From: Cytospora piceicola
Lineage: Eukaryota > Ascomycota > Sordariomycetes > Diaporthales > Cytosporaceae
Assembly (NCBI GenBank): GCA_023375675.1
Contig: JALQBC010000021.1
Location: 434,001 to 498,000 of the forward strand
Reading direction: 5' to 3'
Length of the DNA stretch: 64,000 nucleotides
Shown in pieces: positions 20,183 to 61,104 of the stretch (position 1 is its first letter; every line of letters starts with the position of its first letter). Both the position numbers and the translations under genes were made by a program. Under the pieces are notes generated by a model that saw nothing but the letters and a program-made list of their open reading frames with translations, did no database searches and was not told where the DNA came from.

Positions 20183-20250
20183 GCCCCTTGTCAACCGAGA
20201 GCGATTTTTTCCCATTTTCGGCAGGTCTTAACTCCTAAGACACTGTTTTT

Positions 20251-20333
20251 AGAGTGTATTTTCGAGTTTAAAACCTGTTTTTAAAGTGTATCTCGAGTTT
20301 AAGGCCTGTTTCTAAAGTGTATTTTCGAGTATA
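20251..20333 (+). repeat. Terminal tandem repeat of about 30-34 bp (left end)
   Basis: Three successive units of GTGTAT(T)TTCGAGT plus an A/C/T-rich spacer containing CCTGTTT. A mirror set lies at about 60955-61030 on the right end. Confidence 0.85.
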
Positions 20334-20564
20334 ATATATATATCGTAAGTTTAGACATTATCTTTAGAGTATATCTTTAAGTCCTTATCGTCTAGCTTTT
20401 ACGACGACCTTAAGTCTTAGCCTTTAAGTCCTTATCGTCTAGCTTCCACGATAACCTTAAGTCTTAGCCTTTAAGTCTTAATCGTCTAGCTTCTATTACG
20501 CCTAAGTAGAGTAAACTACTAATTATCTAACTATAGCCGTGTAAGTAGTATTCTTAGTATATCT

Positions 20565-21120
20565 TATAGTCGGTCCGCCTTAAAAGATCTACGTATAATA
20601 CCTTTTATAATCGGTCCGCTATAATCGGCTTAAGCTATACTAAGTAGGAAAGGCTATATAGAAGGAGTATATCGTATACTCGGTCCGCTATAAGACATAT
20701 AACTGCTTAAGTAGTAACTGCTTAAGTAATAGCTACGATACCTTTATAGTCGGTCCGCTATAGAATATGTAACGTATAGCTATAATACCTTTTACGGTCG
20801 GTCCGCTACAGAAGATCTATAATAGCTATAATACCTTTACGGTCGGTCCGCTATAGTCGGCTTAAACTATATCGAGTAAGAAAAGCGATATAAAAGGCTA
20901 CGATACCTTTTACAGTCAGTTTATTATAGAAAATAAAATATAGAATATATAACGTATAGCTATAATACCTTTACGGTCGATCTGTTATAGAAGATCTACG
21001 ATAGTTATAATACCTTTATAGTCGGTCCGTCTCGAAAAATCTATATACAATACCTTTTATAGCCGGTCCGCCCCGGAAGATTTATAATAGCTACGATACC
21101 TTTTACAGTCGGTTTACTAT
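20565..21120 (+). repeat. Subterminal repeat array, left (CGGTCCG core)
   Basis: About eight clear copies of TCGGTCCG(C) occur near 20571, 20611, 20680, 20750, 20798, 20843, 21021 and 21062. Decayed forms (TCAGTTTATT, TCGATCTGTT) lie between them. They are embedded in a 40-70 bp context of the type AGCTATAATACCTTTTA then CGGTCGGTCCGCTATAGAA. The core CGGTCCG reads CGGACCG on the other strand. Confidence 0.85.
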
Positions 21121-21179
21121 AGAACATGTAACTAGTTAAGCTATTTATAGCATCTTTCCCTAAGACTAATTTAGCTATA

Positions 21180-21210
21180 ATAGCTATAATAGCTATAATA
21201 GCTATAATTA
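21180..21210 (+). repeat. TAGCTATAA tandem repeat
   Basis: Four to five copies of the 9-bp unit AGCTATAAT follow the subterminal array directly. Confidence 0.85.
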
Positions 21211-21480: not shown

Positions 21481-22419
21481 TCGACTACGTTATAATATAT
21501 ACCGATATTAATCGGGTCTATAAACTTATACGTAGTTAGATTAAAATAAAGTCGAGGTTAATACTATTAATTAATATATCCTTATCGTCGTCTATAAGTA
21601 TTTATTATATATACGTTTATAAAGTATATTAGGCCGGTCTTTTTCTTAAGATTATATAAAATATTAAAGACTAACTAACTATATAAAGTATATTATCCCC
21701 TTTCTTTAACCTAACGGCGAAAGCTTATTACTCTTTATTAGTAGTCTAATAGCTTTTATTATTAGTAGTTTAGCGGTTTTTATCGTTAGTCGTTTAATAA
21801 TACTTATCTTTATCTTTATCCTCTTCGATAATAAGCCTTTTACGTTTAGATAATATCGCTTTAAAAGAACCGCTTTAAAAGATATTAAAAAAGGACTAAT
21901 TATAAACCTTATAGCTGTCAGCTAGCCTAATAGCTATAAAGCGGGTATAACTATACACTATAGTATAGTCGATACCGCCGGCGACTTAATAGTTAAATAA
22001 GTAGTACTTCTCTTTAACCTTTATTATCTTAGCCTAAATATATTATTTACGTCTAAAGTATAGCCTTAGCTTATTTTACACGGCGATTTAGTATATCTTA
22101 AAGACGAAGGTGTAGACACGGCCTTAGTTATCCTTTAAGGCTAGGCCGAGGGCGTTAATACCCGGTATATAAGGCTTTTTAAATACCTTATAAACGTCGT
22201 TTATAACGGGAAAGGCTTTATAGAAAACTCTATAAAGGCCGAAGCCGACTAAGTATCGTAAGTATTTATATATATAAAGGGTATTAAATAATACTTATAG
22301 AAAGTTCTAGCCTTACTTAAGTCTCGAGTCTCGGATATCTTATTAATAAAGTAAGTAAGTAATAACGTTAAATAAGTCTTATAGTTTTTTAGCCGGGTAG
22401 TAATTAATTTAAAAGTAAA

Positions 22420-22620
22420 AGTATATAAAGTTTAAAAGTAAAAGTATATAAAGTTTAAGAGTTTTAAGCTAACTAAAAGTACCGATAGTAGATAATTATA
22501 ATAAGTAACTAACAGATTTTCTCTTTAAAAGTTAAGTATATAAAGTTTAAGAGTTTTAGCTAATTAAAAGTACTAGGACGGTAAATAAATATAATAAGCG
22601 ACTAACGGATATTCTCTTAT
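22420..22620 (+). repeat. Tandem duplication of about 110 bp
   Basis: The string AAGTATATAAAGTTTAAGAG, followed by a TTTTAGCTAA and AAAAGTAC context, occurs twice. A smaller direct repeat (TTTAAAAGTAAAAGTATATA) lies inside the first copy. Confidence 0.75.
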
Positions 22621-24899: not shown

Positions 24900-25375
24900 A
24901 CTAAAAAAGCCTTAGTTTAGCCTTTTACACCTTCTCTAATAAAAGTAAAAGAACTCGCCTCTTATACCTTCTTTACTAAAAAAGCCTTAGCTTAGCCTCC
25001 TACCCCTTCTTTAATAAAGGTAAAAGAGCTCGCCTTTTACACCTTTGTTAAAAAAGCCTTAACTTAGCCTCTTACCCCTTTTTTAACAGAAGCAGAAAAG
25101 CTCGCCTCCTATACCTTTACTAAAAAAGCCCTAGCTTAGCCTCCTACCCTTTCTCTAATAAAGGCAGAAAAGCTTACCTTTTATACCTTTACTAAAGAAG
25201 CCTTAGCTTAGCCTTTTACCCCTTCTTTAGTAAAAGCAAAAAAGCTTACCTTTTATACCTTTATTAAAAAAGCCTTAACTTAACCTTTTACCTCTTCTTT
25301 AGTAAAAATAAAAGAGCTCGCCTCCTATACCTCTACTAGTAAAGCCTTAGCTTAACCTCTTATACCTTTTCTATT
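24900..25375 (+). repeat. 72-bp tandem repeat, about seven copies
   Basis: The AAAGCC landmark recurs with GCC at about 24909, 24984, 25056, 25128, 25200, 25272 and 25344. The first spacing is 75 bp and the rest are 72 bp. The array lies in frame in the decayed gene around it. Confidence 0.9.
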
Positions 25376-25538
25376 AAAAGAGCTCTATAAAGAAATCGTA
25401 AAAATATCTATCTTTAATAAGTTCCTTAACTTAAAACTAAAGTATAGTTTTACCTTACCGGCACTTATATAAACAGATTATTCCTTATAAAGACTCTATA
25501 TCGAAATAGCTAAATATAACCTGCTTATAGTAAAATTA

Positions 25539-25670
25539 GCGTTTATAAACTTAGTTAAAAATAATAAAATATTAGCGTTTATAAACTCGGCTAAAAACGA
25601 TAAAATATTAACGTTTATAAACTTAGCTAAAAACAATAAGATATCGGCGTTTATAAAATAAGCGTTACGT
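25539..25670 (+). repeat. 36-bp tandem repeat, about four copies
   Basis: GCGTTTATAAACT-like starts recur at 25539, 25575, 25611 and 25647, exactly 36 bp (12 codons) apart. Confidence 0.9.
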
Positions 25671-28600
25671 AATATATAAATACCGAACAAAATAAATTCG
25701 TTAAACTAACTCTATCTTAGTAATAAATATAAACCCGCTTTAAGTAACTAAAAATAATATTATCTTAGTCGATACGTAGTCTTCCTTTAAAAGGCTAGTA
25801 TTCGAGAATATCGAGCAGATCGAGTAAGTCGTTTTACTCTATATTTTAATAAAAACTAACTAGTCTATTACCTTAAATAATCTATTAAACTTAAAAGTAA
25901 TAGTTCTAGCTTTCCTAACATTCTTTAAATAAAAGTATAACTACTACCGGATAATAAATAATAACCTACTACCTTTTATAGACGGTATATTCTATACGAA
26001 GTAAAAGAGGGTTTTTAAAGGCTAGCTAAGCTACTATTATTTCGATATTATTACGCTCGACGGTAATCCTTTTTATCTAGGCCGTTATTATAAAAGCCCC
26101 GAGTACGTTACGATAAACCTTCGTATATAACTTAATAACCCCGATAACTGCTTTAAAAAGACCGAGAAGCCGGTAGTTCAGGTCTATAATCTTTAGCTAT
26201 ATAACCTTCTAGCCTAAATTAAACGACGTTATAATAATATCTTCCCTTATTAAAATAACGGCGAATATAACTAAAGTACGTCCCTTCTTATATTAACGTA
26301 ATAAACTATTTATAAAGTAAAACTAACTTTAATATATAAGCTAATAGGTCGGAACGTTTACTAAAAGCTAAAAGATTAACTATAATAGAATCTATTAAAA
26401 CTAACCTATACTTAAGATATATATATAGGTTTAAGCGCTTTATATAAAGTAATTACTTTTACTTTAAATATTCTTAAAGGTTATTAACGAGATAAAGCTT
26501 AATAGATAATAATATAGATTATATACTTTATATCTATATATACTCCTTTTATATATATATAAACGAACTAAATTCCGGATCGGTTCCCTCCTTACTTTAT
26601 TAATTTAATATAATATATAACTATATTTAAAAGATATAGTATATATACTATTACCTATACTTACCTTCGGCTAGTTTCTATAAAAACCTAACTTCCCTCG
26701 GCTTACTATAAATTATAATAGCTTTAAAGACTTAAGGTATTTATAAGCCGAAAGGAGAAAAGGCGTAGCTTACCGTACTAAAGTTTATTATAAGGTTTAT
26801 TATCGATCTGCACTAGCTTTTAATTATCTCTTTTTTATATAATTTATAGTTTCGGATCTAATACTATATAAAAAGCTAACGCCGTAGTAATAACTAGCTA
26901 ACGAACTCCCTTTTTTATACTTAAAGCGGCTTTACCTTATCTATAGGTTTTAAAAAAATATAAACAGAAGCTGTATATAAATATTAACTTTAAAGCGTTA
27001 CTACTATAACTACCTCTTTAAATCTTATTCCTTTATATAATACTACTTAAACCCCGTACTTAATACCTATTCTACCTTTTTAGCTATCGGATTACTTAAT
27101 AACAGCTTAAACAATATCTTTAAGTACTACTTTTATCTTACCGCCGAGGCCTAAACCTCGATAAGCCGAATCGCTTTTAAAGTATTATCGTAATAAAAGA
27201 AAAAGTAACCTTAGTAGATAAAAACCCTTATAAAAGACTTAATAATAGTATAGAAAAGACAGAGAAACTACGGCCGGTCGACTTTCCTTTAAATCCCTAA
27301 CAGGCGATAAAGCTAGCTAAAATCTATAACGATAGCGACGCCGAATAAAACCGGCAGCTTACACTCGAACGAAGGAAATATATACTACTACAGCCGTAAC
27401 GTTTTTAAGCCTTCCGGCATACTTTTAAACTCCCTTAATACCTAAATCTAAAGCAGGATACGTTCGAAAGTCGTTAAAGCTACGTATTATCCTATATTAA
27501 CCGCTCGCTTATATACCGAAAAGGCCGACATACCTAAAAAAAATAAAACAGTTCGTACTCCGAATACGTTAACGAAATAAGTAGTCTACTCCGGTATAGC
27601 AAAAAGATATAGTTATAGCACTTTATCTTACTCTAATTAATATAGTACGGCTTTTAAGTAAAATAGTTAAGATTAATATAAAGCGAGTTATAGTATAAAT
27701 AGCTACTATTATACCTAATAAACAGCCTATACTCGACTAAGTTATCGAGCTAAATCCCGCTCTATAATTAATACTCTATCGAAAACTAAGCTAACGCTTT
27801 AAATAATATAGTAATATAGTCCCCTTCTTTATAAAACTTTATATTATTAGTACCGTACTAGCCTTAAAGCAAACGACTTACTATATAAAGTACGACTAGC
27901 CTTAAGCATACCGCTAGCTTAAAATTTTATACTAAGGTTTCCGGTAATACCGCCTCCTACTCGAAGGTTAAAAAAACGTATATACTAAAATACTCGTATA
28001 CAACGCTTTATAAGTTTATTAGCTTAGCTACACGCTAGTCTAGCCTTTACTTTACCTTATATATAAGCTAAAAAACCCCCTTTTACTATATAAAAACCCT
28101 GTTCGACCGTTTAATATTATAGATAGGTATAACCTTAAAGTAATTCCTATAGCAGTCTTAACGCTTCTTTAAAATATAGGTCTTAAAGTCTACGCCAAAA
28201 CCGACTAAGTAGTCGCTTAAATACTTTAAAAAGCTACCGATAAAAATATAACGGAATACTTTATCGCCGTTATAATTATAAACTAACAGCTAAATCTGTC
28301 TTCTATAAAGCTATATCGTTAAAAGGTCGACGGTAATAAAAGTATAGCCTATAACCTTACTATAAACCTCTTATTAATATTATATATATATATAGCGCTA
28401 TAAATTCTATAGTCGTAAGAAAGGCCTTTTATAAAAGCTACCGTCGAGCCGCCTTTTATAACACTAATATATTAAGCCTTATTCGTCGTTTATAATAACG
28501 TTATAATACCGGGCAGAAAGCCTTCTATACTTCCTAGCGTTATAGCTAAATACCTTTAACCTTTAACGCTATCGGAATATCCGATAGTTACTTATAGTTA

Positions 28601-30354
28601 TTCTTAAAGTCGAAATACCCCGAGTATTATTTTAATTTATTATTATAGTAATCGGAGCGTTCGACCTTATTACTTACGATAGTAATAGTCTTATATAGCT
28701 TTTAAAAAACTATAGTTTAGCTAAAAACACTTTTATCTATTAAAGTATATATACATTTATTATAACTCTTCTATATAATTTAATATAAGTAACTCGTTAA
28801 GTTCGGGTTTCTTTATAGTAAAAAGCGTAATTATCTTCTATACCGGAAATATACTTTAAAAGACTAATAATATAGTATATAAGTATAACTATAAATAAGT
28901 AGTAAAGTACGAAAACACCGATATATAATAACGTTAAACGAGATTCCTTTACTTCCTACTTATTTAAAACTTCTTACTTAATCTAAAGATTATCCTATAA
29001 GCGGTATTAATAATTAGCGAAATACGATAAATATAATAACTTACCTTTACTTATTACTTTATCCGACGCCTTTTAAAATAGCTATAATCTTAAATAAACT
29101 AAGCGGCTATTTTTAGTCTATAGCGTATAAAAAACTATAAATAATATAATAGCGGTTCTTAACCTATACCTTAAGTATATAGAAAAAGACAAGGTTATCG
29201 ATAAAGCCGACTTATATATCGGTTATACCGGTTAGCTTTTTTATAGTCGTAGTCTTTAAAGTATCGACAACGTATATATAATAAAACTTCCAGATATCGT
29301 CCTCGCCTTTCTTTAACTTACGCCGGAAAAGGTCTATAAGGTAATCGAGACTTAACTAATTAAAAGCCTTATCTATAACCTACTTCCTTTCTATATCCGA
29401 AAGGATAAAGGTATCCTCTTTAAACCTATTCTACTCGGAATATAAGATAATATAAAACACCTCGGTATTAAAATATAAAAGCTTAATTTAAAACTATACG
29501 GTATTATCGACATCCCTATTACAGATAAAACCGTCGTTTAATATAGTTAGCGGCTTTATACTTAAAGAAACAGGTTTAAGATATATTAGTACTAGTCTAT
29601 AAAACAATAAGAGTTAAAACTTATATAAAAGACACAAGACTTTAAAGATAAGATCTTAAATAGTAAAAGATATAAAGGTAACGACGATATATAAGTTTAA
29701 AATAGTAAAATATAAGATAAAAGGCAATATTAAAAACATACCGGAAAAAAAGTAATATAAAAAACGTTAAAGTATACTATTATATAGTTTTTATTTATAT
29801 AGCTATAAGTGTTCTCTATTCCTTATTTATCTATTAAAGACTAACGTTAAAGCACCTCGAACAGCTAACCCCGAAATACTCTAATATTAGCCTTTTCGGT
29901 AATAACTATACTAACTTTATAATTTATATCTTTTCCGGTATTTTAGTTACTTAGTAATAAAGTATTATAGGCAGCTAACCCTATAATACCTTACTACTAA
30001 GTAAACGCGATACTAAAAAAAGACTAAATACTATCGTTATATTCGTTTTAAACCTGCCTAAAGCATATACCTGTTTTTATTATAAGTCCGACTAACTACG
30101 TTACAGTTTAGTAATTTTAAATTATATTAAGTATTATAACTAAACGGCTAACCTTAAAAACTATACCTAATACGTCCCTTAATCGCATTATCCGAGACTA
30201 CCTTCCTTAACCCTTTTAATCTAAGTAGCGAATATAATATTACGCTGCTTTAACGTATTTATATATACGTACCTAAGACGTTATACTAACAGAAGCTAAA
30301 CCTCGATAGCCCGGATAGTCTGTTTATCTAATACTTTCTTACCGGTAGATTTAA

Positions 30355-30495
30355 TATTGCCAGGTAGTTTATTTTATATTTAAGTATAATTTCGCTAAAT
30401 AGTTTATTTTATATTTAGCTATAATCTCGCCGGGTAGTTTTTATATTTAGCTATAATCTCGCCGAGTAAATATAATCTCGTCGAGTACTTTTTAG
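30355..30495 (+). repeat. Imperfect tandem repeats around TATTTAGCTATAATCTCGCC
   Basis: Three to four diverged copies of a 35-45 bp unit containing GGTAGTTT, TATATTTAGCTATAAT and CTCGCCG are present. No coding frame is evident. Confidence 0.65.
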
Positions 30496-31384
30496 TTTCC
30501 TTATCTATAAACTTATAAGTATAAAGAACGAAAGTATTTAATTATAAAAGCTTCCGGTAATAATTTCGTCGGAAGTTTACTTATTTATCTATACCGCGGT
30601 ATCGTTAAATATAAACGATAAGATATACGCTTTCTAGCTATATATTTATATCTTATTTAATAATAATAATTACTTCCGATAGTAATCTTATTAAATATAA
30701 GGAAAAAGGTCTACTCGGCTATAAGGTACTATAAAAAAGAGAGTATTTAATAATAATAACTACTTCCGGCGGTAATCTCGTTAAGTATAAGAAAATATAG
30801 TAGTAAGCTATAAATAAAAGAAGGTGTTTAATAATAATAAGTACTTCGACTTATCGTTATACGGCTTAAAATTAGCTATATATATTATTACCGATAGCGA
30901 GATTTATATTAATAAACCTTTAGTTTTACTCTTTACCTAGTTATAAAGACCGGTTTCCGTATATAATATTCTACTTTAATAAAATATTTAAACCTATAAG
31001 CTATACGTTTTTACCTATATCTTCTTATACAATAACTATTATTTTCTTATATTATAAGCTTAAATATTTAACTTTATAGGCTAAAGTTATTACCGGCATG
31101 TCTATATATATAAACTGTTACTTTTTTAATAAGTTTAAGTCGGCTTTCGTTATTTCTATATATAATAGACTACTATTTTATCGTAAAATAGTATTTATAT
31201 ACCGGCCGTTATAAAGAAAAGTGTTTAACAGGTCTTTACTACTTATATCTTATTATAAAAGCGGTTACGAATAGTAAGCCCGGCCTTTCGAGGCAACGGT
31301 ATACGATATATAAATATAAATCTGCTATCGTATATCTCGCTTTACTTATTAAGTACCTTTTAAACCTTATTAGCTGTCTATATC

Positions 31385-31500
31385 TTTCTGTTTATATCGT
31401 TCTATCTATATCTTTCTGTCTATATCTTTCTATCTATATTTTTCTGTCTATATCTTTCTATCTATATCGTTCTATTTATATCTTCCCTATCTATATTCTC
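31385..31500 (+). repeat. Microsatellite-like TCTATATCTTTCTG array
   Basis: Seven to eight diverged copies of a 14-16 bp pyrimidine-rich unit (TATATCTTTCTGTC / TATATCGTTCTATC). Confidence 0.85.
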
Positions 31501-31849
31501 GCTATCTATATAAGCCTCTCTGTCCTCGCCTTTTTAAAACGTTATTATAACTATTAAGCCGACTCCCTTCGCGACTTAAAGTAAAAGAATAAAGCTTATA
31601 GCCTTCTACTTACCTTTAACAGCCTTACCTATAACTATAATAATTATATTACCTTCCGGGCTATTTATAACCTAAACGTCTTATAGCCTCTTTATATAAC
31701 AGTATTCCTTTTTATCCGTTTTACCGTCTCCCTTAAAAAAAATAATATAGTCGAAAATACTTAAAAACGCTTTAAGGTAAGATATAGTAATATAGAAAAA
31801 AAAGATATTCTCTTTATTATCGTATACGCCGCTATAAACGTAGCTAAGT

Positions 31850-32720
31850 TACGTTACTTAAACAGGTTTAAGACATATAGCTTAATCGATATCGTTAACA
31901 GAGCTATAAGCGATAACTTAACTAACCTCTTCCGGAGAACTATAAATAATAACTTAACTAATACCTTTAGAGTTATAAACAGAAACTTAACTAACGCCTT
32001 AAAAACTATAAACGGCTTAACTAACTTCGGAATAGCTATTAACGGTTTAACTAACTTCGGAATAGCTATAAACGGCTTAACTAATACCTTCGGAAAGATT
32101 ACGAACAGAAACCTAATTAACACCCTCGGAATAACTATAAATAACGTCTTCGGAATAACTATAAATAACGCCCTTAAAAGGACTATAAACAGAAGGCCGA
32201 CCTATACGCTCGATAAAGCATATACCCTTAAAAAGCCTACACGTCCCGGCTTTAACGTTAATACTAGAAATACCTTAGCCCCGGCTATTAGTCTCCCGGC
32301 CGAGCTACTTACTAAGTCCTACTAAATAAGTCTCTTTTACGTAAAGTCTATAGCTTAATTAATATAAATAGTAACCGAAAGACCCTCTTATTACCTTTAA
32401 TAATAAGGTTAAGGGCTTTAATATAAAGACTATCCGGAAAGGTAAGATACTAAAAAGCTAAGCTACTACCTATATCGAAGCCGGTAAAGCTATTAAAAGG
32501 ATAACAGCTAAAACTAACCTCGATACTCTTAGCTAAAAGCGTATAGTCGATACGGTTAAGTCTATTAATAAGTCCTTATATATCTTTATAAAAACGGCCG
32601 CCGTTATAATACTAGTATATCGCCTCTGTTTAGTCTAAAAGGCCGAAGCTAATATCGTATAGAATAATAATAACGATAAGTAAAGTAAGAAAGATAAGGC
32701 TTAATAGTATATCTAGTTCT
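31850..32720 (+). pseudogene. Decayed gene with NLTN-type repeats
   Basis: A plus-strand frame stays open from about 31860 to 32324, unusually long for this block. It encodes repeats such as INGLTNFGIA and NRNLTNAL at 30-36 bp spacing (30 bp exactly between 32011, 32041 and 32071). A second frame, interrupted only at probable Gln codons, continues to about 32720. The TG-poor repeat units escaped many stop-forming changes. No domain recognised. An open frame on the opposite strand is a shadow of the repeats. Confidence 0.55.
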
Positions 32721-34769
32721 TAATACTAGCCGATAAGTCGTACTTCTTAAACGGCCTAAATCTTATATATATACGTAAATACAGAATTATAAGTAGTACT
32801 TTTTTCTACTTTAGTTTTATTCTAAGGTAACGGTTTTAGTATTTACTTTAGTTTAATATATTATAAACTATCTTTAACTTAAAAATTTTATTTTAAATCT
32901 ATATAAAGGTTACGGCTTATTAATTAACTAGCCGAATAATTAATAGTTTTAATTATAAGAAGTATATTCTTAACTTAACGTAGTAACTATAACTATTTTA
33001 TTATATTTAGTACTCTTAATATTATAATTAAAGGTTATAAGAAATAGCTGTTCGGTACCGAATATAGTTATATAACCTTTACCGCTAGAATTTAAGTAAA
33101 GAGTCTATAAATTCGATAACCTATTATAAAGTTTAAAACTAAACAACTAAATAATTAATTTATTTACTACGAAAGGGCTTATTTATAATATTTAAGCTAA
33201 TTATAATATCGCTATTATTATAAGGCTCTTTTAGCCTTTTAGTATAGTTATTTCTCTTCCGGTTATAAGTAGCTATATCGGTATATATACCCGAGTAGTA
33301 AGCTAAACCGGTCTTTCTCTTTTTTAGTTGTTAAAACTACTATAATCTTAAAATAACGCTTTTATATACCGAGGCTATAAATAATCTAAACAATAGAATA
33401 CCTCTTTACGTTTAAGCGTAAGGTATTATAAACGTTATAAAAACCGAGGCTGTAACCGTTAAACCTATAGCTAAAGCTCTTTTAGATCTATAAGTTTATC
33501 GTCTATAAGTTTAAAACGAAAGTTCCGGAAAGAGCTATAGGTATACTTAAACTCCTATCTCTGCTTTTCTTAAGTAACGTTAGCTATCTCGGTACCGAAC
33601 TTATAACTAAAACGCTTTAAAATATTATTATCGGCTTCTGCTTACTACTTAGCCTTAAGTTTAAAAGCCCTTTTTAATATTATATCTACTAGTATAAAAC
33701 CTTTATTATTATCGACCTTGCTATTTAAAAAGATAACTTTATTATCTCTACCGAAAAAACTATTGTTTATTATAATATCTCTATCTTTACCTTCCTCGTC
33801 TATTATAAGGACGGTAAAAGAAAAGGGTATAAGAGGTTTATATTAGCTATCTCTGTCTTTACCTTCCTTACCCTCTTCTATTATAATAGAAAAAGAAGCT
33901 ACTACTATAAAAGCGATAAAAAGAGCGGGCGCGGAAGGTTCTTACTATATAACCTAACTAGGCTATAACGTATTAAGGAAAAAAGTAAGCTACCGATAAT
34001 AATAAGCTTCTTTATAATATATATAGTTAACGTAGGTATTACCGGTATAAAACTTAATTTCTAAACCGTCTGCCTTCTTTAAGTTAATATAGTATTTAAT
34101 AAAAAAACTATTACCTTTTATATACTATCGGTAAAAACCGAGTATATAAATACCTATAATCTATATAAGTAAGGCAACGAGGTTTTTAACTTAACGTATA
34201 CCCCGGCTATTACTTATACTCTATAAATAAAAACAGGCGTTTTATCGTAGGTTACGAATAACCGCGTTTATAGCCGGTAGGTCGAACTATATACTGTTAA
34301 TAAAGAAAGAAAAGGGAGAAGGGATAATACTTACTAATTACTTAACTCTACAGTTTATCGGGCGGTAGTTACCCGGAAATCTTATAACTAAATCTAAATA
34401 CCTCGTTTTAATAACCTTTTAAGTAAACCTTAATATAACCGGGGCCTTTAAGTAATAGCGTTAATTAGAATATAACCGTTTAGTAAACCGGTCGATAAAG
34501 TTTAATAACAGATTTACTAAAACCTTACTTTAAAGAACTTACGGTTTAAAAAGGTATTAAAAAGGGTAGAAGAGTTAAGGGTTATAAAGGAGGTAACAGA
34601 AGATATTATTAAATAAGTAATTAATTTAAACAGTATTAAAGTATATATATTAAGAGAGTATATTATACTTACTAAAAGATTAAGAAAAAGGTTAACTATA
34701 ATGTCTGTTATTAAAAAACGTTAAACGTTAGTATTTTACTATAGTTTAATATAACGCTTATATAGTTAA

Positions 34770-34945
34770 AGCAACCGGTTTAATAACCGGTTATATTATT
34801 ATAGTAACACGTTACTATATAGGTAACTATAGTAATATACATCTTAGATCTAAATACTAACTATATTTATAATACAGCTAGTAATATAGCTCTTATATAG
34901 CTAATATAACCGGTTCGGCTACCGGTTACGTTATTATAATAACGT
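34770..34945. repeat. Paired ACCGGT inverted repeats
   Basis: Two similar stretches, each with AACCGGTT-type palindromes followed by TATTATTATAGTAAC or GTTATTATAATAACG, lie about 120 bp apart. ACCGGT palindromes also occur at 21280 and 51180. I see no element boundaries around them. Confidence 0.5.
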
Positions 34946-35559
34946 ATTTCTATATAAGTTATAACTATTATATTAAATAGTTAGGTTATAGACATTATAG
35001 CAGTATTATATATATAATCTTAATTTAAGCTATTAAAACCTATTATATTATACACCTTACTTAGATCTAAATTAAGTATAAAATATAGATCTATAGAAAC
35101 TAGCTTTTTAACGTCTACTTAAAGGTCTTTAAAAACCTTTAAGCCTTCTACCTTTATATACCTTACTACCCTTATATACGTTACTTTATCGACTTACCTT
35201 TTCGCTTTATACTTTTTACTAAACCTGTTTTCTAAACAACTATAATCGTTAAAGCTAGTTTAAATAGTTACTTTATATTTAATAGCTAGATCTATCCTAT
35301 ACCTTACTTATTTTAATTAATAACACTACCTTTTCTATACCTATCTAAATATAGTACTATAATAAGCGTATAAACGTAATACGCCTTAATTAAGTCGCCG
35401 TCTAATCGTATAATCGGAATAATATAAGTAAGTTAAAGCATCTGTCCTATAGAGCGCCTATAATCTAGCTCGACACGATAGCCTACCCTCTCCGTATTAT
35501 AGTAAAGTTACTTCTCGGTTCTTTACTTTAAAACATTTACTAACTTAAAGATAAATTCC

Positions 35560-47159: not shown

Positions 47160-48044
47160 ATAACTTTAAGCTTACTCCTATCCTCGGAATCGCGTAGGCT
47201 AAGAATATATAGTCTACCTTTTCGTTTTAAGACATTATCTTTTATTCTACCTTAGTCTTAAGGCTAAACCTTCTCTGCTTCTTAATTATAGCTATAAGGC
47301 GATTAATAACGTAATAAAGAACTACTTCTTAATCCCGGTTAAGCTAAAGCTATCAGACGTTAAAAATAATATTATTATATTATTTTAGTTATATTAGTAA
47401 TCTGCTGCTACTGTTAATCGAAAGGCTTAAGGGTATATTCGAACTAACTACCGGCTATTTTATAAAAGGTATAAAGATTATTAAAGTCGTTAAGTAGTAA
47501 GATTAATTAAGTCTTTAAAAACCATCTATTAATATAACCAGTTATTTTATATTTTATAAAAAGTTATAGTATAATTATATTTTAATATACTTAAGATATT
47601 ATTATAGTTAACCTATCGGAAACGTAAAACGCGTTATAAGGTCTTATACTTTATTTTTAACTCTCGTTTTATATTCCTGTTAGTTAAATACGCTACTAAT
47701 ATTTAAAATTAAACCTTGTTATTATAAAACTTTCTAACCTATATCCTAATAGTTTATTTATATCTATATATATTCTAGCTATTTTTTTAATCGAGGATTA
47801 AACGTATACTTAAAAATAAACTTAACGTATAAGGTTAAAAGCTTAGTTATTATTATAGTTATCTAACTATCTATCCTTCCCGTTACCTGTACTCTTTTCG
47901 ATAACTACTTTTTAAGATATTCTCCCGGTAAAGCTATATTAAACCCTTTATTAAAACCTGTATTAACTACTAAAGCACTACCGACTTAATAATATACTAT
48001 AAAAGCCGTTTACTTTTAAAGCCCGATACCGACTTATAGAAATA

Positions 48045-49190
48045 AACTAAAAAAGAGCTGTTACTATACGCTATTATATATAATATAAGTATACCGTAAG
48101 AGCTCTTTTAAACTATATATAAGAAAATAGAAAAAGCGTCGGACTTAAATCTTAACCCTATATATACGCTTATAAAAAACTAGTACGGACTATAAGTTAA
48201 GGAAAAGGCTATAAAAGTATAAATTCTTAAAGGTATTATTTATAAAATTATTAAACGACTATAGCCGGCAGCTATACCTACAGGTCTGCTTATAAGTTTA
48301 CTTATAGTAATATTAGCTTAACCTATTAAGAAAAACCCCGCTTATTTTATCTTCTACCCTTAATAGTAAAGACCTAGCAATATTTTCAACGTTACTAACC
48401 CTTATCCTAATACTAAAGCTACCCTGCTTACCCGCTATACTATATTCGATATACCTCCGACTTCGAAAACCTCCGACCTTTTTATAAGCCCTTTACCGGC
48501 TAGCGTTTTTAATAGCCTATCGACTCCTCCTTAAAGCCGGTAAACATATTAGGTTTATATAAATATAAATATATTCTAACGTATATTTAACGTAGTAAAC
48601 GTACCTTCTGTTAACTTTACCTTAAATATTACCTGTAACCGCTTTATCTTTAATATACCGGAGAAGATAGCTATATATAGCTTTACACGGCCTTTAAAGC
48701 CCTATAGACGTAAAAAGAACTAAAGCCTAATATCTTTTATTTAAAAAAACCCGTTATAAGCTTATAACTTACTAATAGACTTTATAAAGGTTATTAATAT
48801 TAAATACCCGGACGTTACTACTATCCTAATAAACGATAGAAGCGGCTAAAATACCGAAAAGGCTATACAGGTCCTTTTTTAAAATATAAGCGATATTAAC
48901 AAACAAGCCCTTATAATAAAGATATATACCGTAAGTACTCGGTAAACCGCCTTAAACTAGCTCGAAGTCTTTTCTAAGATTATTAAAGATACAGACTAAA
49001 TAAGTAAAACGATAAATAAGGTAATTAATAAGATAAAGCGTTTTAACGTAATAATCCTTAGTAATAATAATAAAGCTTCCGATAACGCTAAGTATAATAA
49101 CAGGTATAAGGGCGGGCGTAAAGGTAGGCGGGATAGTAAGCGGGATAGTAGCGGCCGGGCTTACTTTAAAGATACGATAAAGACGTAATC
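48045..49190 (+). pseudogene. Decayed gene with Gly/Arg-rich C-terminus
   Basis: A plus-strand frame begins around KKELLLYAIIYNISIP, includes AAIPTGLLISLLIVILA and FTRPLKPYRRKKN, and ends in a basic Gly/Arg/Asp/Ser tail (YKGGRKGRRDSKRDSSGR). Interruptions are TAA/TAG at probable Gln or Trp codons. The basic tail could bind nucleic acid, as in transposon-encoded capsid-like or accessory proteins, but no zinc knuckle or other motif is visible. Function unknown. Confidence 0.57.
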
Positions 49191-51140
49191 TATCGCTCCG
49201 AGAATAGCTACGGATAAGCTATAAAAACGGTTAAAACTAATTATAAATACTTTATATAAACTTATTATTATAATAGTTTTATCGAAGTTATAATATTACC
49301 TTTAGTCGGCTTTATATATATAATATTATAATATAGTATAAGGTGCTTAGTAGCTCTATATATATAGTACCGATAATATAACCTTAACCTTCGCTATAGT
49401 TAATAACCTCTAACACGGTTTATCTTTAGCCGTAATAATACTAACAGTATAAGTAAATCTAAGTCGACTTTTAAAATAAGAGGCTATATACTCGTTTAGT
49501 TTATATACTAATAGCTAGATATCGGCCGCCTCTACCCGGCTAGTCTTTCCCTTCTCTTTTTTATTAAAAGCGCTATAGGTTAGTAAATTACGAACCTCGT
49601 ATATAATTAATATTATAACTCTTCCTGCTTAAGAAACGTTTATATAGTATTATATATTATTAATATAAGAGGTATAGTATAGTAGCCGCCGTTTTAATTA
49701 GTTAATATAAAAGGGAAAACAGACGCTAAAACGAATAGTATATATAGGTATCGATACTATATATATATTTTATTTAAAGAATCGATCCCGATAGAGATTA
49801 TCGAGGTAGGTAAGGATAGGAAACTCGTAGCGGTAATCCCTTTTAAACTCGGTATATATATAAACTATAGATATATATTTACTTTAATATATATTCCCGA
49901 TATTATTTATAATCTTAACAGGTAAGGTATAAGGTAAATAGCTGTCTTATCTATTTATAAAAATATAGCTATCTTTTAAATTAATATCTTAATCTTTTTT
50001 CTTTTATAATCTTAACCTAGTCTACTTATTATTTACTATTAATAAACTATATCTATTACTTAATATAATCTTAGGTAGTTTAAGCTTTAAAAACCTATTA
50101 TTCTTTTAAGTTTTAAGCAGGCTTTAAACTTATCGGTAACTACCTATAAACTTTTAACTTTTATTAGGCTTAAGGCTAAAGCTATTTTCTATACTTTCTA
50201 TTCTTCGACTTATAATATTAAAAGCCGTAGCTAATAACCTAGCTATATATAATAGCAATAGCTATATCGAAACTACTAAAGGAAATATATCGTCTAACGT
50301 AGCGAACGACCGAGGTATACTATTAACGCTTTCGATAGATATACTAAATTATAAACGGCTTAAGCTAAAAACTAAAATCGAAGCCGATTTCGTCGGTAAT
50401 CTACTTAGTAAGTTCCGGAACGCCCTCGGTAAAAATATCGGTAAAAATACTATCGGCGATATATAGCTATAGGTAAAACAGGCTAAGTCTATCTGTAATA
50501 GTATCTTTAATAAAGAGTTAAAGTATATTCCCGATACGACTAATATAATAGCCGAAAGTGTTACTATAATATCTTAAAAAATAGCTATAATATCTAAAAA
50601 TATCGTAATAATAATAGAAAGGCTTGTTAGTATAAAGGCTATAGTCGATAATATAAATAAAGTCTTTTATATAAACTACGATAGTCTATTAAAGATACTT
50701 AATAAGCTAAGAATACTCTTTATATTATAAACACTTCCCGGCTATCCTTTTAATCTTATAACCTTTTAGCTTAATACCTCCGTTAATAGTAGTTATAGCT
50801 AAAACTAAGTATTACCTATAGCTAATAGCAGTCCCGTCGAATTATTATCCGTTAATAAGAACAGCGATTAAAACGTACCGCTTATAGCCGATAACGGTTC
50901 TGTCCGGTAAACGTTACTATTTAGTCTAATAAATAAAAATACTAATAATAAATAGATAAAAAGTAGTATAAAGAATAAAGGTAGTATAAAGAATAGGGGA
51001 GATTATAAATATAATAGTAGATATTAAGCGTTAGCTATAAAGTAAAAAAGGCGATTTAAAGGCTAGATAGTTCCTGTTTTTTATAACGCCTATCAGAACT
51101 TTTACTATAATAGTTAGTAGTAGTAGCTATATTAACAGTA

Positions 51141-51370: not shown

Positions 51371-52059
51371 TTATTATTTACTAGTTTCTTATAGTATAAT
51401 ATTCGTTAAATAAGCTGCCTATCTTCTATCGACTTATAGTAAATTTTAAAGTCTTTAAATAAATTAGTAGGCTTTATACTATAGCCTTTACTATTAATAG
51501 TAATTCCTATGCCCTATACCTTTAAATCCTTTTACGCTTGGTAAAGGCTATACCGGGTAAGAGAAGGTTTATTTCGTATAGTGTTATTATTTAAAGCCTA
51601 TTTCGCGTAATATTATTATTTAAAGCCTTTTACGCTCGGTAAAAGCTATACCGGGCAAGACAGGCACTATAAGCCCTACTTATTATCGTGTATAGTATAG
51701 GCCTTACCTGTTACGCTATACGTTTATTTAAATCGTTATTTTTACGTTACTTTTAAATATAGTTATAATACTAAGTCTTAAGTATACACTAACGTTAAAA
51801 CTACCCTCCTTTTACAAGAATATAAGTTATCTGTTATTAATCCTTCTAGCCTTTATAGACCTCCTACTAACAGTTAGTTTACTAATAGCGAGAAGATCTA
51901 CGTTAAAAAACATCTTTAAGCGTAAGCAAATCCGACTAGCTTAAATATTAATAATAGCTAATAAGGCTTAAAATCTTCGTAACTACTTACGTAACTACCT
52001 AAATAATACTTCTAGTATCTTTATTAAATTTATCTAGATTATTTAAGATAGCTACCTAG

Positions 52060-53050
52060 AGTTTTCCAGCTTTATAAAGTATAATACTACGTCTGATCTC
52101 GATAATAAAGCGTAACGCCTCGATAATCTCGAGTATAATATTATAGAAAGGGAGCGTTATATCTTTAAAAAGAAGCTTTAAATTTCCGAAAAGGAACGTT
52201 AAGTCGAGACTAAAGATAAGCAGCTTAATAAGAAGTCTCTTATCTTTAAACGGTATAAGTAATATATCGAGGCCTATAGTATATAAATAAAAGAACAGGA
52301 AAGCTACTTAATAGAAGTTATCGATTTAATTTTAAAGGCCTTAGTAAAAGCCGAGTTATAGAGCGCTTAAGTAGAGCGGGATATAAAGGTTACTAATAAA
52401 GCTTTTTTAAAGATAAAGGCTAAGTTATAAAAGGTCCGGAAAGCTATAAAGAACGTAGTTAGTATTTTAAGATATATTAGTTCGAGGTTAAGTAACGATA
52501 ACTAAATAAAAAAGTCCTTAATAATTTAAGGCTATCTTTAAGGCGGTTAAATTAAACTAGCCTCTGTATATTAATAGGCTATTATAGGGTATATACTTTA
52601 AATACTTATCTTTATAATATTAAAAACCTGTAGGCCGATAATTAGAGTCTTATTATCCTGTTATAACTAAACCGGTAACTTTTAATCTCCTTTAAATCTA
52701 ATTAATCGACCTACTTAGTATACCGTAGAGAAACCTGTTACGTTACTATAAAGTAATTCTTTAAACTTTCTATTAACCTTAGATATAACTAAAACGATAA
52801 CCCTTACGTAACCTCTTCTCTTCGACTATAATACCCTTTCTACCGACCGCAATACTTTCCGATAGCTAGCCGCGATACCTCTTCCTTATTAACCGCAACT
52901 CCCTCTATTCCTCTAGTTAAGATACCCTCTTATAATAACTGTCCGTAATAACCTTCCGCGATAACCTTTCGCGATAACTTTTTACGATAGCCTGCTATAT
53001 TAACCTACTGCGTTAACCTTTACCGTAATTATTATATCTAAGACAGCTTA
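52060..53050 (+). pseudogene. Decayed coiled-coil gene
   Basis: The plus frame starting near SSFIKYNTTSDLDNKA runs for about 330 codons with only RIP-type stops. The first 150 codons are rich in Glu, Lys, Arg and Ile/Leu in heptad-like order (LEYNIIERERYIFKKKL, ISEKER, VETKDKQLNKKSLIF), suggesting a coiled coil. The later part is Pro/Thr/Leu-rich. No known domain was seen. Confidence 0.57.
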
Positions 53051-55210: not shown

Positions 55211-58200
55211 AGTATAAAACTTATAGTTTTATTTTTTAAATAGCTAGATTTAAACTTTAATATAAAAGTTTTCTAAATAATTAAATAAGTTTACTAGATA
55301 TCTTTATTAAACACCTTTATTTTCTGTTTTTTAAAAGCAGATTAAAAAAGGTATATTTAAGCTAGTAATATTAAAAGGTTAATACTATTTCTTAAACGTT
55401 ATCTTAAATACCTAGTTTTATCGGCATTTACTACTAGGTAGAAATAATAACAGGTATAAGAAGAAAAATCTTTTTAAAACCTTAAATATTTAGGCTTTTA
55501 TTAGATACTTAACCTAATATAATATAAACTTACCGATCGATATAACCTTTAAGTATATTTTAACCTTAAAAGTAAATATTAAAAAAAGTCGAACGCTATA
55601 TATAAGAAGTTAGCCTTAAAGATTAAATCCGAACCCCTACGTTTTATTATTAAATAAATACTACGCTAAAGTTTTAATATAGTTTTATTATTAAACCGTT
55701 TACTTACTATCGCCTATTTAATAAAAATACTATTATTTAAATATCTCGATTATTCTGCTCTCTATTAAAGCGATAAGCTAGTCGATAAAAACGCTATTAT
55801 TTAAATACCTCGTATACCTACCTTATACTACTCTTTATTAAAACGATAAGCTAATCGCCTATCGCCTGTCTAATAAAGATACCGTTATTTAAGTATCTCG
55901 TATACCTTATACTACTTTCTGTTATTAATATTTAGCTTTTTATTAAGTAACTATTACGTAATAGGCTAATACTGCTTTTTAAGGCCGCTATAGTTACTTA
56001 ACCGACCTAACGAATATTTAAATCTAACTTTTATAAACTAAGCAGGTATAATAATATTAAAACTGTTAAAACTATAAGCAGACTTACTTTAAATTTTACT
56101 TTAGTTCTACCTACTTCTTATTTTTAATATTATACTTTATATTTTATATAAGCCTAGCCTACTTAACACTTATACTACCTACTATTATAAACAGATCTAC
56201 TAAACTAGCTTTTAATACTAAGAAGTTATTTTCTAAGCCGACGCCTATATAAATACAAATTACTAATTTAGCTTTTAGCTTTATAATAAGTCGAAACTCC
56301 CTATACCTACTTCCTTACTCGATACTAATTCTATCTGCTTTATAACTAACCTTTTAAAGAAACCACCTAATAGCCGACTAACCTTATATAATACTTAACT
56401 AGTTATCGACTAAGCTATCGATAGTAAGTTAAAAAGCATTTTATTCTTTATCTCGATAGATTAATATTAATAATCCTAGCTAAAGCTAACCCTTAAAAAA
56501 AAGAACTAACTAGCCGATTAATCTTATATAATACCCGAAGGTTTATTTTAACCTTACGTTATTAAAGATAAGTATATAATTATCGTTAAAACAGTTTTTA
56601 ACTAAAAAGCTAATAATAAAGTATTCCCGATCGGTCTTAAAGATATCCTTACGTCGAAACTAAAAGGGATTTACTTTTAAGAGTATTTTTAAAGCGATAA
56701 AACATTTATACCTAGCCTTTTTTAAATATAGTATAATAAACGTCTTAAAGACGTTATAAACAGCTTTTAATAAAACTTTTATAAAATCCCGTCGGCTAAT
56801 ATTACTTTATCGAAAGCTAACGAAACCGAATTTTTAAAGCTATAAGCCTTCGACTCTTTAACCGGTTAAAACGTCCTCTTCCTTACTTTACTATTTAACG
56901 TATCTTTAAAAGCTTTTATACTATTTACTTTTTGTTAAAAAGCCTTATATTACTATATAAAGGCTAATCTCGTAGTTATTATAAGCTTCTTTAACTAAGT
57001 AAAGAGCCCGGATATATTTATTTTAAACCTTATAGTCGCCGCCTGTTAGTAAAAGGTTTTATAAGATTTCGAAACGCTTTAAGATTAACGCCTTCCTATT
57101 CTCTAATAGCTTACCGTCGTTATAGAAAACCTTATAATAGCTCGACGTCTATTAAAGCTTCGTAACCGAAGTTATTAAGCTCGGCTAAAGTAATAAGCCG
57201 ATATAATAAACGAAAACTTAAAAATAGTTCTTAAAACCGTCTCTACTAAAAAAAAGACACGGATTTTAAAAGAGAAGCTTATAAAGGCTAGACGAAATAA
57301 TAGCCTTCTTTTTAACCTCCGAATCGAAAATAAAAGATCTCTTAACAACGTATTAATTTAAAAAGTATCCCGGATCTAATAAAGCTACCTAGCTATTTTT
57401 AAAAGCTATAGCCTTAGTAAATCGGAGTTTAAAACCTATATACTTTTCGACGGTATATATATCTATCCCTTCTATATCTTTTACTATAGCTAGCTACGCT
57501 CTATCGGCTATATAATCGGTACTCTACATACTATATTAGTATCTTTACCTTTCTATATACATTATAATAAAGCTGTAGTACGCTTTAACCTTTATAAGCC
57601 TAAACTAAGTGTTTATTAAAAGCGATTCCTTTTTTAAATTATTCACAACGTCTTATAATAAGTCGTTTAAGCCGTTTAAAAGGTTAATAACCGGAAGACG
57701 GATAACCGCTATTCGTTAAACTTTATACTTAAGGTCTAATAGTCGATTACAGACCGTTAAAGCTTCCCGATCGTCCCGTTTAAAAATAGCCTTTTCCGGT
57801 ACATTACTACTACGTAAAAACCTCCGAACTCGGCAATATTCTCGGGATATTAAACTAGTCCGTTATTACTAACAGAAGGACCTATTAAACACCCGAACTT
57901 ATTCAATCCGGTAAAAAACTTTTAAAACGAGTTTTATAGCGTTACTTAAAATAGTAATATTACTAATAAGGTTATAAGTACCTCGGATCCCTTATTTTAG
58001 CTAACCTAGTTTACTTACCTGTCGTAGATCCCGATAAGTAAACCGTTTTAAAAACTTAAACCCGAACTTAATAAAAAGCGATAAGCTTTAAAAGAACGTT
58101 TTAAGATAAAAGCCCCTAACTCTTTATTTCCCGACCTTAATATACTAAACCCTTTATACGCCTAACTTATAAATAGTTAAAACTAGCCGCTTTATTTCCG

Positions 58201-58889
58201 ATACCTATATCTACACTACCCTCTTTTTAACTTCGACGCCGGTTAATACTAGTACTACTTTAACTGCTTTTATAGCAAATAAAGGTATAGATATAACGAT
58301 TACTAAAGGTTATTTTTTAACTAAGAAGCTTTAAAAGCTTATCGGGATATTAACTTTTATCTCGGTATAAAAAGTGTTTTCGACTAAGCCTATAACTTCT
58401 TTTAGAAATACCTCCGTTATAACTATATCGACTATACCGGAAGGCGGGAGAGATTCGATATAAAATATTACCTCGATTAACACCGCTAAAGTTATATACC
58501 TTTAAAAGAGTAATTATATCCGATAATAGTTTATAAATATAGCTTTTACTAAGTAAGTAAAATAAATTATATTAACATATATTAATCTACTTAATTCTAC
58601 TAACGATATATAAATAACCGCGGTAAGCTTAACTAAAGGCTATCGAAAACGTTCTAATACTCGAACTATTATTTCGAAACTAATAATCGGTATAAGTAAA
58701 AAGAGTATTAACGTTTAAAGAATTATAAAAAAGAAATACTATACTCTCTTCTCTAAGGCAACTTTTAAAAGATCGACGAAGCTACTATTTAGATATAAAA
58801 GGCCGGATAGGTTTTAAAGCCTTCTTTATCGAAGGTACTCTAAGATTCTTAAAACAACTATAAAGCTATATAAGATCGCGGTCTGTAAA

Positions 58890-60170
58890 AAAAAGGCTAA
58901 AGTAACAAATAAAAAGGAAACCTTTTTATTTATAAGGCTTATAAATACGGATTTACGCAGACCTGTTATTTTTATCTATATTTTAATACTATAGAATACG
59001 AATTTCGAGATCCTACCTCTGTCCCGTTACCGCAGAAATATCGTTATTAGCTTTACGACTTCGAGACGAATATTCTTTACCGGTCGAAAAAGTATACTAT
59101 AAAGTGCTATTTAGCACTTAAGATTAAGCCGTTAAACCTTATAAGAAAGGTTAAAAACCTTTTTAAAAGGCTTCGAGATATCCTCTTAAGTAATAACGGT
59201 ATCTTTACCGACTTAAAGGAATACGTATATTCCGAATACCTTTATTTATACTTAAAAAAAAGCTATCTTTTATAATACCGGTTAATATACAGCTACTATA
59301 TAAACTACAATACACTTAAGTCGATCGATAACAACGTTTCGATCGCCTATATAAAAACGTATATATATCTTAAAAGAGAAGGTTAAGTATTTACTAGACG
59401 TATCGCTACTAGTAAAGATATTACTAAATAACAGCCGGTTTCGAGTATTAGAAAGCCGACCTTAAAACGTCGGAATTCTAATAATCACTCCTCAGAAAGA
59501 TCTTTAAAGCGTTAGTATTCGAAGCCGACCTTAAAACGTCGGAATTCTAACGATAATCACTCCTCGGAGAGATCTTTAAAGCGTTAATGTTCGAAGCCGA
59601 CCTTAAAACGTCGGAATTCTAACGATAATTACTTCTCGGAAAGATCTTTAAAGCGTTAGTGTTTAAAACCGACCTTAAAACGTCGGAATTCTAATAATAA
59701 TTATTCCTCGGAAAAATCTTTAAAACGTTAGTATTCGAAGCCGATCTTAAAACATCGGAATTTTAACAATAATTACTTCTCGAAGAGATCTTTAAAACGT
59801 TAGTATTCGAAACCGACCTTAAAACGTCGGAATTCTAACGATAATCACTCCTCGAAAAGATCTTTAAAACGTTAATATCTAAAAGTAAAATCAGGTAGTA
59901 AAATCGAAACTACTATATATTAATATTTATTACAGCTAGCCGCCCTTTAGCCGTCGAGTAGTAGTATATCGATACTAATATAAGTAGTAACGTTAAACGA
60001 TACTATAGATAAAGGTAAAGATAGCGCTAGTAATATTAATAATAACGACGGTAACAATAGTAGTAATAGTTTTAAGGCTAACTATACCGACGATAGTAAC
60101 GATAGTTTTAAAGGTAAATAATAGGTTTAAGAATATAAGATAATATAAGGAAATAAAGGTAAGGATATTT
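58890..60170 (+). pseudogene. Decayed gene next to the right terminal repeat, with 24-aa repeats
   Basis: A plus frame can be followed from about 58890 (FIYKAYKYGF) through DPTSVPLPQKYRY, KIKPLNLIRKVKNLFKRL and IFTDLKEYVYSEYLYLYL. It enters six tandem 24-aa units (PTLKRRNSNDNHSSERSLKR type) and ends in an Asn/Ser/Asp-rich tail (NINNNDGNNSSNSF). Stops are few and sit at CAG/CAA-derived sites, for example TAG after KR in each repeat. It lies about 190 bp inside the right inverted repeat. Function unknown. Confidence 0.62.
59455..59880 (+). repeat. 69-72 bp tandem repeat, six copies
   Basis: Copies begin near 59455, 59524, 59596, 59668, 59740 and 59812. Each contains the small palindrome CCGACCTTAAAACGTCGG, then GAATTCTAA, AATCACTCCTCGG and GATCTTTAAAGCGTTA. 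The first copy is 3 bp shorter, so the frame is preserved. Confidence 0.95.
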
Positions 60171-60359
60171 AGATTAAATATATAAATTTAAACGTTAAGA
60201 TATTATACGAACGATTATAACTATTTATCGTTTTTATCGCCTTTAGTATTTAATCGAATAGCCTTCCTTTTTATCCCTTTTAAGCCGAAGGCCTTTTATA
60301 ACTAACCTTTAGGCAAGATTCTTACGTTATCTATATCGTAATTTAATAGCTATCCTTAT

Positions 60360-61104
60360 AATATACGTTACGTCTTCTGTAGCGGACCGACCGTAAAAGG
60401 TATTATAACCTTCCGTATCGCCTTTTTCACTCGGTATAACCCGGACCGACTATAAAAAGTATCGTAGTTATTTATAGATTATCCGGCTAAACTGTTTAAG
60501 GTATTATAGCCTCCTATATCGCCTTTTCTACTCGGTATAGCTTAAGCCGACTATAGCAGACCGGCCGTAAGAGGTATTATAGCTATATATCTTCTATAGC
60601 AGACCGACTATAAAGGTATCGTAGCTATACGTTACGTATTCCGTAGCAGACCGACTATAAGATAGACTATAAACATACTACCGATATAGCTACGGTTAGA
60701 TAAATAAAGGACTATTAGGCGTAATAGAAGCTAGACGATTAAAACTCGAAGGCCGAAGGTCGAAGGTCGAGGTCGAGATAGAGATAGTAATAGTTACGAT
60801 CAGATTCGAAGGCGATATAGAAACAAAGAGATAGCTACGATTAAACTCGAAGGTCGAAGGTCGAAGGCGATATAGAAATAAAGAGATAGCTATAATTAAA
60901 TTCGAAGGCTAAACTCGAAGGTCGAAGTAAAACTTATAATATATGTATTATACTCGAAAATGCACTTTAGAAATAGGCCTTAGACTCGAGATATACTTTA
61001 AAAACAGGTATTAAACTCGAAAATACACTCCCGAAACACTGTCTCGAAAGCCGAAACCTGCTAAAATCGGAAATTACCGCCTCTCGTTATCGAGGTATAG
61101 GGGC
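60360..61104 (-). repeat. Right terminal inverted repeat with subterminal repeats
   Basis: Read on the minus strand from 61104 inward it gives GCCCCT, ACGAGAGGCG, GCAGGT (61061-61056) and the GTGTATTTTCGAGTTTA-type units (about 61030-60955). A divergent CTCGAAGGTCGAAGG minisatellite follows, then TCGTCTAGCTTCTATTACGC and CGGTCTGC/CGGTCCG units. About 56 bases around 60508-60563 match the left copy at 20840-20900 base for base apart from C/T and G/A changes and a base or two of indel. This supports true homology. Confidence 0.82.
60740..60930 (-). repeat. CTCGAAGGTCGAAGG minisatellite in the right inverted repeat
   Basis: Short CGAAGG/TCGAAGGTCG units are interleaved with a 45-60 bp unit containing GATATAGAAA(C/T)AAAGAGATAGCTA. 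At the equivalent place the left end has a different repeat (TTAAGTCCTTATCGTCTAGC). The two ends therefore differ here. Confidence 0.8.

Follow-up and report, generated by a model that had tools for sequence, protein, structure and literature searches.

The established giant transposons of filamentous ascomycetes, the Starships, rely on a tyrosine recombinase, the captain. Other large or structurally comparable DNA elements differ in how they end and insert: Polintons generate target-site duplications (TSDs) of 5–6 bp, CACTA/EnSpm and Plavaka elements carry a terminal motif followed by subterminal repeat arrays, and Helitrons insert without a TSD. The direct repeats of Aspergillus fumigatus Starships measure 2–12 bp, with 1 of 20 elements lacking an identifiable repeat (PMC12153272), and Harbinger relatives with 0-bp TSDs have been reported (PMC12730594). 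The closest published oddity that we found is Icarus of Pyrenophora tritici-repentis, a putative captainless giant element with terminal inverted repeats (TIRs) (PMC9594970). Here we describe a block of about 41 kb in Cytospora piceicola, lying in a window of 64,000 nucleotides (assembly GCA_023375675.1, contig JALQBC010000021.1, positions 434,001 to 498,000), which an earlier note had described as a single giant element destroyed by repeat-induced point mutation (RIP).

The block belongs to a recently amplified giant transposon family that contains at least one constrained gene and occupies about 4% of the genome. It is likely one copy of a family of giant TIR DNA transposons with a candidate recombinase of unrecognised kind, which spread as whole units and were later ruined by RIP. 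Tentatively, the family may constitute a new superfamily, characterised by units of 33–49 kb, repeat-array inverted termini, an undescribed recombinase, precise insertion at CA/TG without target duplication, and about 45 copies despite strong RIP. No description of it was found in the published literature searched, which did not cover preprints.

Ends and composition of the window unit

The bounds of the unit and its two terminal repeats are as follows.

20185..61095, no strand assigned: whole element, a subfamily A copy of 40,911 bp, bounded by alignment with other copies and collinear with copies C9, C15 and C43
20185..21130, + strand: left terminal repeat (left end, LE), with terminal CCCTTGTCAACCGAGAGCGATTTTTTCC, TTTCGAG units, 47-bp units at 20375-20515 and a CGGTCCG array at 20556-21130
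60360..61095, - strand: right terminal repeat (right end, RE), reading inward CCTCGATAACGAGAGGCGGTAATTTCCGATTTT and matched in part, inverted, by LE

The block had been placed at 20183 to 61104. The block itself stands, and its exact edges are shifted: since alignment with other copies sets the ends at 20185 and 61095, the edges given earlier lie 2 bp (left) and 9 bp (right) too far out. The abrupt change in composition claimed for them was confirmed in 1-kb bins, with a GC content of 0.51 outside the left end, 0.24–0.38 within the unit and 0.46 past the right end. The observed/expected ratio of CpA is 0.07–0.28 in the 2-kb bins lying wholly inside the unit and 0.99–1.30 in the host DNA to its left, and the TpA/ApT ratio is 1.57–2.02 compared with 0.28–1.0. 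Where a C or T precedes an A, C survives in 2–5% of cases in the unit and in 69–70% in the left host DNA. These indices, together with the excess of transitions between copies described below, bear out the destruction of the block by RIP.

The TIRs of the window unit are about 0.7–0.9 kb long, imperfect and composed of short repeats. The inverted match predicted between 20183-21120 and 60360-61104 is present: 20196-20352 matches 61086-60930 (82.9% over 158 columns, E 3e-38), 20744-20916 matches 60660-60491 (83.3% over 174 columns, E 1e-43), and a weaker match joins 20564-20815 and 60613-60373 (68.4% over 266 columns, E 2e-21). The two matches at 83% agree with the claim that the same motifs occur at both edges in opposite orientation and the same order. 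Chance accounts for part of the outermost GCCCCT/AGGGGC symmetry, since the right-hand GGGGC falls outside the element; LE and RE are two distinct end types and not identical repeats.

Paired ends across the genome

Searching the 43.6-Mb genome with both TIRs gave 114 matching stretches for one and 156 for the other. The ends themselves were counted by pattern searches of the genome allowing up to 3 mismatches, with reversed patterns as controls. This census found 48 RE and 48 left ends, the latter comprising 23 LE and 25 of its variant B type, and the reversed patterns gave 0 matches each genome-wide. Neighbouring ends facing each other within 110 kb were paired, yielding 46 facing pairs and four unpaired ends. 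One left and one right end make up 45 of these pairs, and the remaining pair is RE with RE (C26); in 10,000 label shuffles the number of left-right pairs averaged 23 and never exceeded 36. The sizes of 39 of the 45 left-right pairs fall into three ranges, with 23 at 33.2–37.5 kb, 9 at 39.8–41.8 kb and 7 at 44.4–48.9 kb. The other six measure 18.8, 49.9, 53.9, 60.2, 61.6 and 102.2 kb; an insert was read at both junctions of the 102.2-kb pair, and the other five probably owe their size to inserts or deletion. All 46 pairs sum to 1.86 Mb, or 4.25% of the assembly (4.1% without the C51 insert described below). The same bounded unit is therefore found at many unrelated sites, as expected of a mobile element in general, and the 45 left-right pairs, together with long collinear copies elsewhere, substantiate the view that the block inserted as a single unit of about 41 kb. 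With the end motifs, other genomes can be searched for the family directly.

Three departures from the usual arrangement were observed. The 18.8-kb pair of LE and RE (C79:1020501-1039289) is apparently a deleted copy, and could be a natural minimal unit. Relative to the window copy, the interior at C58:25286-85466 runs the other way between its ends, an arrangement that recombination between the two TIRs would produce. All nine subfamily C pairs (for example C24) have the core gene inverted relative to the ends when compared with subfamily A.

Probable amplification followed by RIP

Four other copies were compared with the window unit at length, C9, C15 and C24 as a whole and C43 without its left end, which the end pattern puts another 7 kb outward. 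The window unit aligns collinearly with C9, C15 and C43 along almost their entire length, at about 82–85% identity in long blocks and lower in short ones. C24 is a related 35-kb form that has segments in common with the window unit at about 65–87% and an inverted central block. Across the comparisons with C9, C43 and C15, 15955 transitions and 1010 transversions were counted over 120,091 aligned positions; in the interior (25183-44182) the counts are 7503 and 126 over 56,421 positions. Because the differences are almost all C-to-T, the window unit, C9, C15 and C43 must have been nearly identical at insertion. With CpA nearly exhausted, most of the differences among these four copies lie at CpT and CpG. 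Several of the host genes interrupted by the family (see below) have kept open reading frames on either side of the unit, a further sign that insertion was recent. A recent burst would thus have produced many copies, and RIP would afterwards have converted nearly all CpA sites, ruining every copy examined. The family is an example of RIP hitting giant units multiplied in a burst, some of them inside host genes whose halves remain open.

Insertion sites

Both junctions of 15 units were inspected, and 12 of these units have both canonical ends. In all 12, a C precedes the CCT of LE, and the base before that C varies. Read outward, the dinucleotide just outside RE is CA in 10 of the 12 and CG in C28; the window copy carries TA.

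61096..61097, + strand: two bases flanking RE on the outside (TA in this copy), read as target sequence

No flanking repeat of constant length and register was found among the 12 units, the most being 1 bp (C). Matches of at least 3 bp within four bases of the ends occur in five of the 12 pairs and in none of the other seven. A TSD was considered from these matches and rejected: GGGCT (5 bp) in the window copy and GATT (4 bp) in C36 stand at one unequal offset, and the other three differ.

Four interrupted host genes allowed the original site to be approached: an ammonium transporter (C1), an aldo-keto reductase (C12), a HET-domain gene (C9) and a zinc-cluster gene (C28). HET and fungal Zn-cluster domains in genes neighbouring other copies, together with RIP, point to a filamentous fungus as host. 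Joining the two halves of each of the four genes in frame needs 2 nt (modulo 3) between the flanks. When the C12 aldo-keto reductase was compared with the best 5 of 17 matched solved chains, there was no gap at the junction and a two-residue gap a few residues on. The bridging residue in those five chains is A, Q, Q, A and K; CA on the RE side would encode Q, and CC on the LE side would encode P, which is absent from all five. CA is therefore most likely the target sequence. In the C9 HET gene, TG from the RE side yields W at the junction, which we take to be the usual residue at that position, and in the C1 transporter, whose junction falls close to a variable loop, the codon specifies P either way. 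Most likely, then, the unit inserts beside a CA/TG dinucleotide with 0–1 bp duplicated. Insertion of this kind would be unlike that of ordinary DDE transposases and closer to site-specific recombination. In the mechanism we propose, an element-encoded recombinase would recognise LE and RE, excise or copy the whole unit, and join it precisely beside the CA/TG dinucleotide, much as a site-specific recombinase and less as a DDE transposase would.

The single RE-RE pair, at C26:348063-348130, has two REs facing each other with 2 bp between the CCT starts (judged from coordinates only), as if one unit had inserted at the end of another. This two-base spacing fits a dinucleotide target.

A constrained gene and a candidate recombinase

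Three reading regions bear on the coding capacity of the family.

47884..49098, + strand: core gene shared across subfamilies A, B and C, for a protein of unrecognised family (indels in multiples of three, length test, phase test)
56351..58150, + strand (probable): candidate mobility gene beside RE, present in all three size ranges
58152..59374, + strand: further reading region in a different frame, which may be an exon, a frameshift or a separate gene

The core gene is under coding constraint. Among 20 copies compared with the window, three A copies lack indels and each of the 17 from subfamilies B and C carries 8 to 11, all multiples of three; its length is divisible by three in 16 of 16 fetched loci. 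Purine/pyrimidine differences show a phase excess in 47601-47900, 48051-48200 and 48501-49100 (p 0.0015–0.25 per 150-bp window), and none in 47901-48050, 48201-48500 and 49101-49250.

The region adjacent to RE was found at no fewer than 29 loci among the matches listed, spanning all three size ranges. In 56800-58149, a range picked after the fact, 31 of 55 purine/pyrimidine differences fall in one codon phase. Stops in 56351..58150 number 35–40 on the + strand and 41–44 on the - strand; the length of 56801-58150 is a multiple of three in seven of seven copies and that of 56351-58150 in six of seven. In 58152..59374, the chosen frame has the fewest stops among the three + frames, 20–26 in 405–410 codons. 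Strand was also assessed by a codon classifier trained on host genes with simulated RIP, which was right in 13 of 28 held-out windows and was used only alongside agreeing phase tests. Compared with C24, 56351-59374 has 106 transversions in 3042 positions, the lowest of the three shared regions longer than 1 kb (the others have 127/1463 and 118/1190). Because it is found in every size range, 56351-59374 is favoured as the mobility candidate and is the best candidate for the family's recombinase.

Searches for a known enzyme

Pfam six-frame scans of two copies, together with the region profiles, returned chance-level matches only (E 0.04–0.83). Profiles of 47.9-49.1, 56.4-58.2 and 58.2-59.4 kb found no match in a database of 5.8 billion proteins (about 8000 best-word candidates scored for each), and those of 47.9-49.1 and 56.4-58.2 kb had no PDB match at E values up to 10. 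No consistent Walker A or polymerase B signature emerged across five copies, and AlphaFold modelling of the core gene, its stops translated as Q/W, gave a mean predicted local distance difference test score of 30.1. A PF03175 search was silent; as its own controls were silent too, this result is uninformative.

The sensitivity of these searches was examined with eight host-gene pieces in which simulated RIP, comparable in strength to that in the family, changed 20–24% of nucleotides and 21–49% of residues. Pfam still found five of the seven pieces submitted (E 1.7e-4 to 2.7e-33, the weakest below the curated cut-off), and two HET pieces that were detected undamaged (E 2e-17 and 1.4e-3) were lost. 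Two damaged domains were recognised in this genome outside family sequence: a DUF3435 captain bearing RIP mutations (E 1.5e-7) and a Helitron domain interrupted by 17 stops (E 1e-17). Had the family a well-conserved captain or Helitron enzyme, it would probably have been detected; a diverged one might have escaped.

Comparison with described elements and alternative explanations

Several described elements share features with the family. Like CACTA/EnSpm and Plavaka elements, it has a terminal motif and subterminal arrays; it differs from them in size and in giving no transposase match, and shows neither their 2–3 bp TSDs nor the TGT..ACA or CATCA..TGATG termini of Plavaka (PMC12730594). It resembles Teratorn and piggyBac as a very large TIR transposon with CCYT-type termini; the TTAA duplications and 12–19 bp TIRs of piggyBac were not seen (PMC10175614). 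The constant-length TSD of DDE cut-and-paste elements was absent at the 12 sites, and the scans of two copies gave no Pfam match to a DDE transposase, of which RIP may hide a diverged one. The family shares insertion without a TSD with Helitrons and differs from them in its long TIRs; no Rep/helicase was matched by Pfam in the two copies, and Helitron_like_N domains occur in the genome only outside family units. Icarus is likewise giant, bears TIRs and lacks a captain; unlike the family, it measures 294 kb, has a potential TSD and DDE genes at the captain's place, and was reported in two isolates, not as a multicopy family (PMC9594970). The suggestion of the earlier note that the block may be of an unfamiliar class is favoured, as no known transposase family was recognised.

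A Starship origin is unlikely, whether with a captain so diverged or damaged as to go unrecognised or with units moved in trans by the captain of another element. Starships are also multi-gene elements of tens of kilobases, often with TIRs, in RIP-bearing hosts, and a DUF3435 match does lie inside the bounds of one copy. Among A. fumigatus Starships, 18 of 20 have TIRs and 19 of 20 have identifiable direct repeats, down to 2 bp (PMC12153272). TIRs alone cannot separate the family from Starships, because Starships often carry them; the earlier note had set Starships apart by the captain as opposed to long TIRs, and of this the contrast in TIRs carries less weight than claimed, the lack of both a captain and a constant direct repeat being the better separator. 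Within the reach of Pfam and at the 12 paired ends, neither a 5' captain nor constant short direct repeats were found, and the family further differs in its roughly 45 copies per genome and its long repeat-array TIRs. PF11917 matches occur only in a nested insert (C51), whose captain sequence is unmatched in five family copies and was still detected despite RIP damage. Non-autonomous giant units with cargo genes, served by a transposase encoded elsewhere, are improbable. Such units would account for the failure to recognise a transposase, and the 14 B-type pairs of 33–36 kb are absent among the matches listed to the 47.9-49.1 core gene, so that not every gene is needed; the RE-adjacent region, however, is present in all size ranges, including at least five B pairs of 33 kb, which is what a mobility gene should show, and with no pair of these ends shorter than 18.8 kb, the census shows no small autonomous partner. 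We regard as quite improbable the repeated integration of a Polinton-like element, of an endogenous linear double-stranded DNA virus or of a linear plasmid, with terminal repeats. Long TIRs, the lack of a TSD and regions conserved across subfamilies in rearranged order would suit such an origin, and Polintons/Mavericks have several genes, TIRs and lengths of up to 40 kb (PMC10175614). Yet polymerase, integrase, packaging ATPase and capsid families gave no match in the six-frame Pfam scans of two copies, where RIP may have hidden them, there is no constant TSD, and IMG/VR held no relative when searched with two end motifs and two protein alignments. RIP acts on any duplicated DNA, but segmental duplication, or RIP spreading over unrelated AT-rich DNA, is scarcely conceivable given the census, which contradicts it with 45 dispersed left-right pairs whose sharp ends lie inside different host genes.

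Several points weigh against a giant transposon family with its own recombinase. No enzyme was recognised by protein, PDB or Pfam searches or by AlphaFold, and RIP can hide a domain. The in-frame copies of the core gene represent three lineages, not 20 independent cases. The mode of insertion is deduced from 12 filled sites with both ends, none of B type, and the GGGCT and GATT matches share the same unequal offset in the window copy and C36, which we take as chance because the other ten sites lack them at that offset. If the family is indeed a second kind of giant transposon unrelated to Starships, fungi would have evolved large multi-gene mobility more than once, and a search limited to captains would overlook megabases of such elements.

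Nested insert and other observations

One family copy is split by a 58.6-kb insert at C51:125026-183596. Both PF11917 matches in the genome lie within this insert. Its RIP-damaged captain match (C51:181911-182709, E 1.5e-7) is about 0.9 kb inside the right end of the insert and reads inward, as in a Starship; the captain sequence has no match in five family copies. A 4-bp duplication around the insert was dropped after the junctions were read, which left 0–1 bp. The Helitron_like_N domains lie at C14:1048290-1048820, heavily RIP-damaged, and at C57:602280-602882, both outside family units.

The window unit has the following further features.

27004..28505, - strand (only probable): second core region of A, B and C, in two phases
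51914..52499, + strand: third region in common, present in A, B and part of the C copies, with weak support for the frame
21732..22533, no strand assigned: segment near LE kept between A and C, with 7 transversions in 695 aligned positions compared with C24
24848..25379, no strand assigned: tandem array of ~70-bp units, from self matches
59444..59884, no strand assigned: tandem array of ~71-bp units, from self matches

No single reading frame stood out in 21.2-22.7 kb. Outside the unit, positions 3001-4000 of the window have a GC content of 0.75, with long open reading frames overlapping on both strands.

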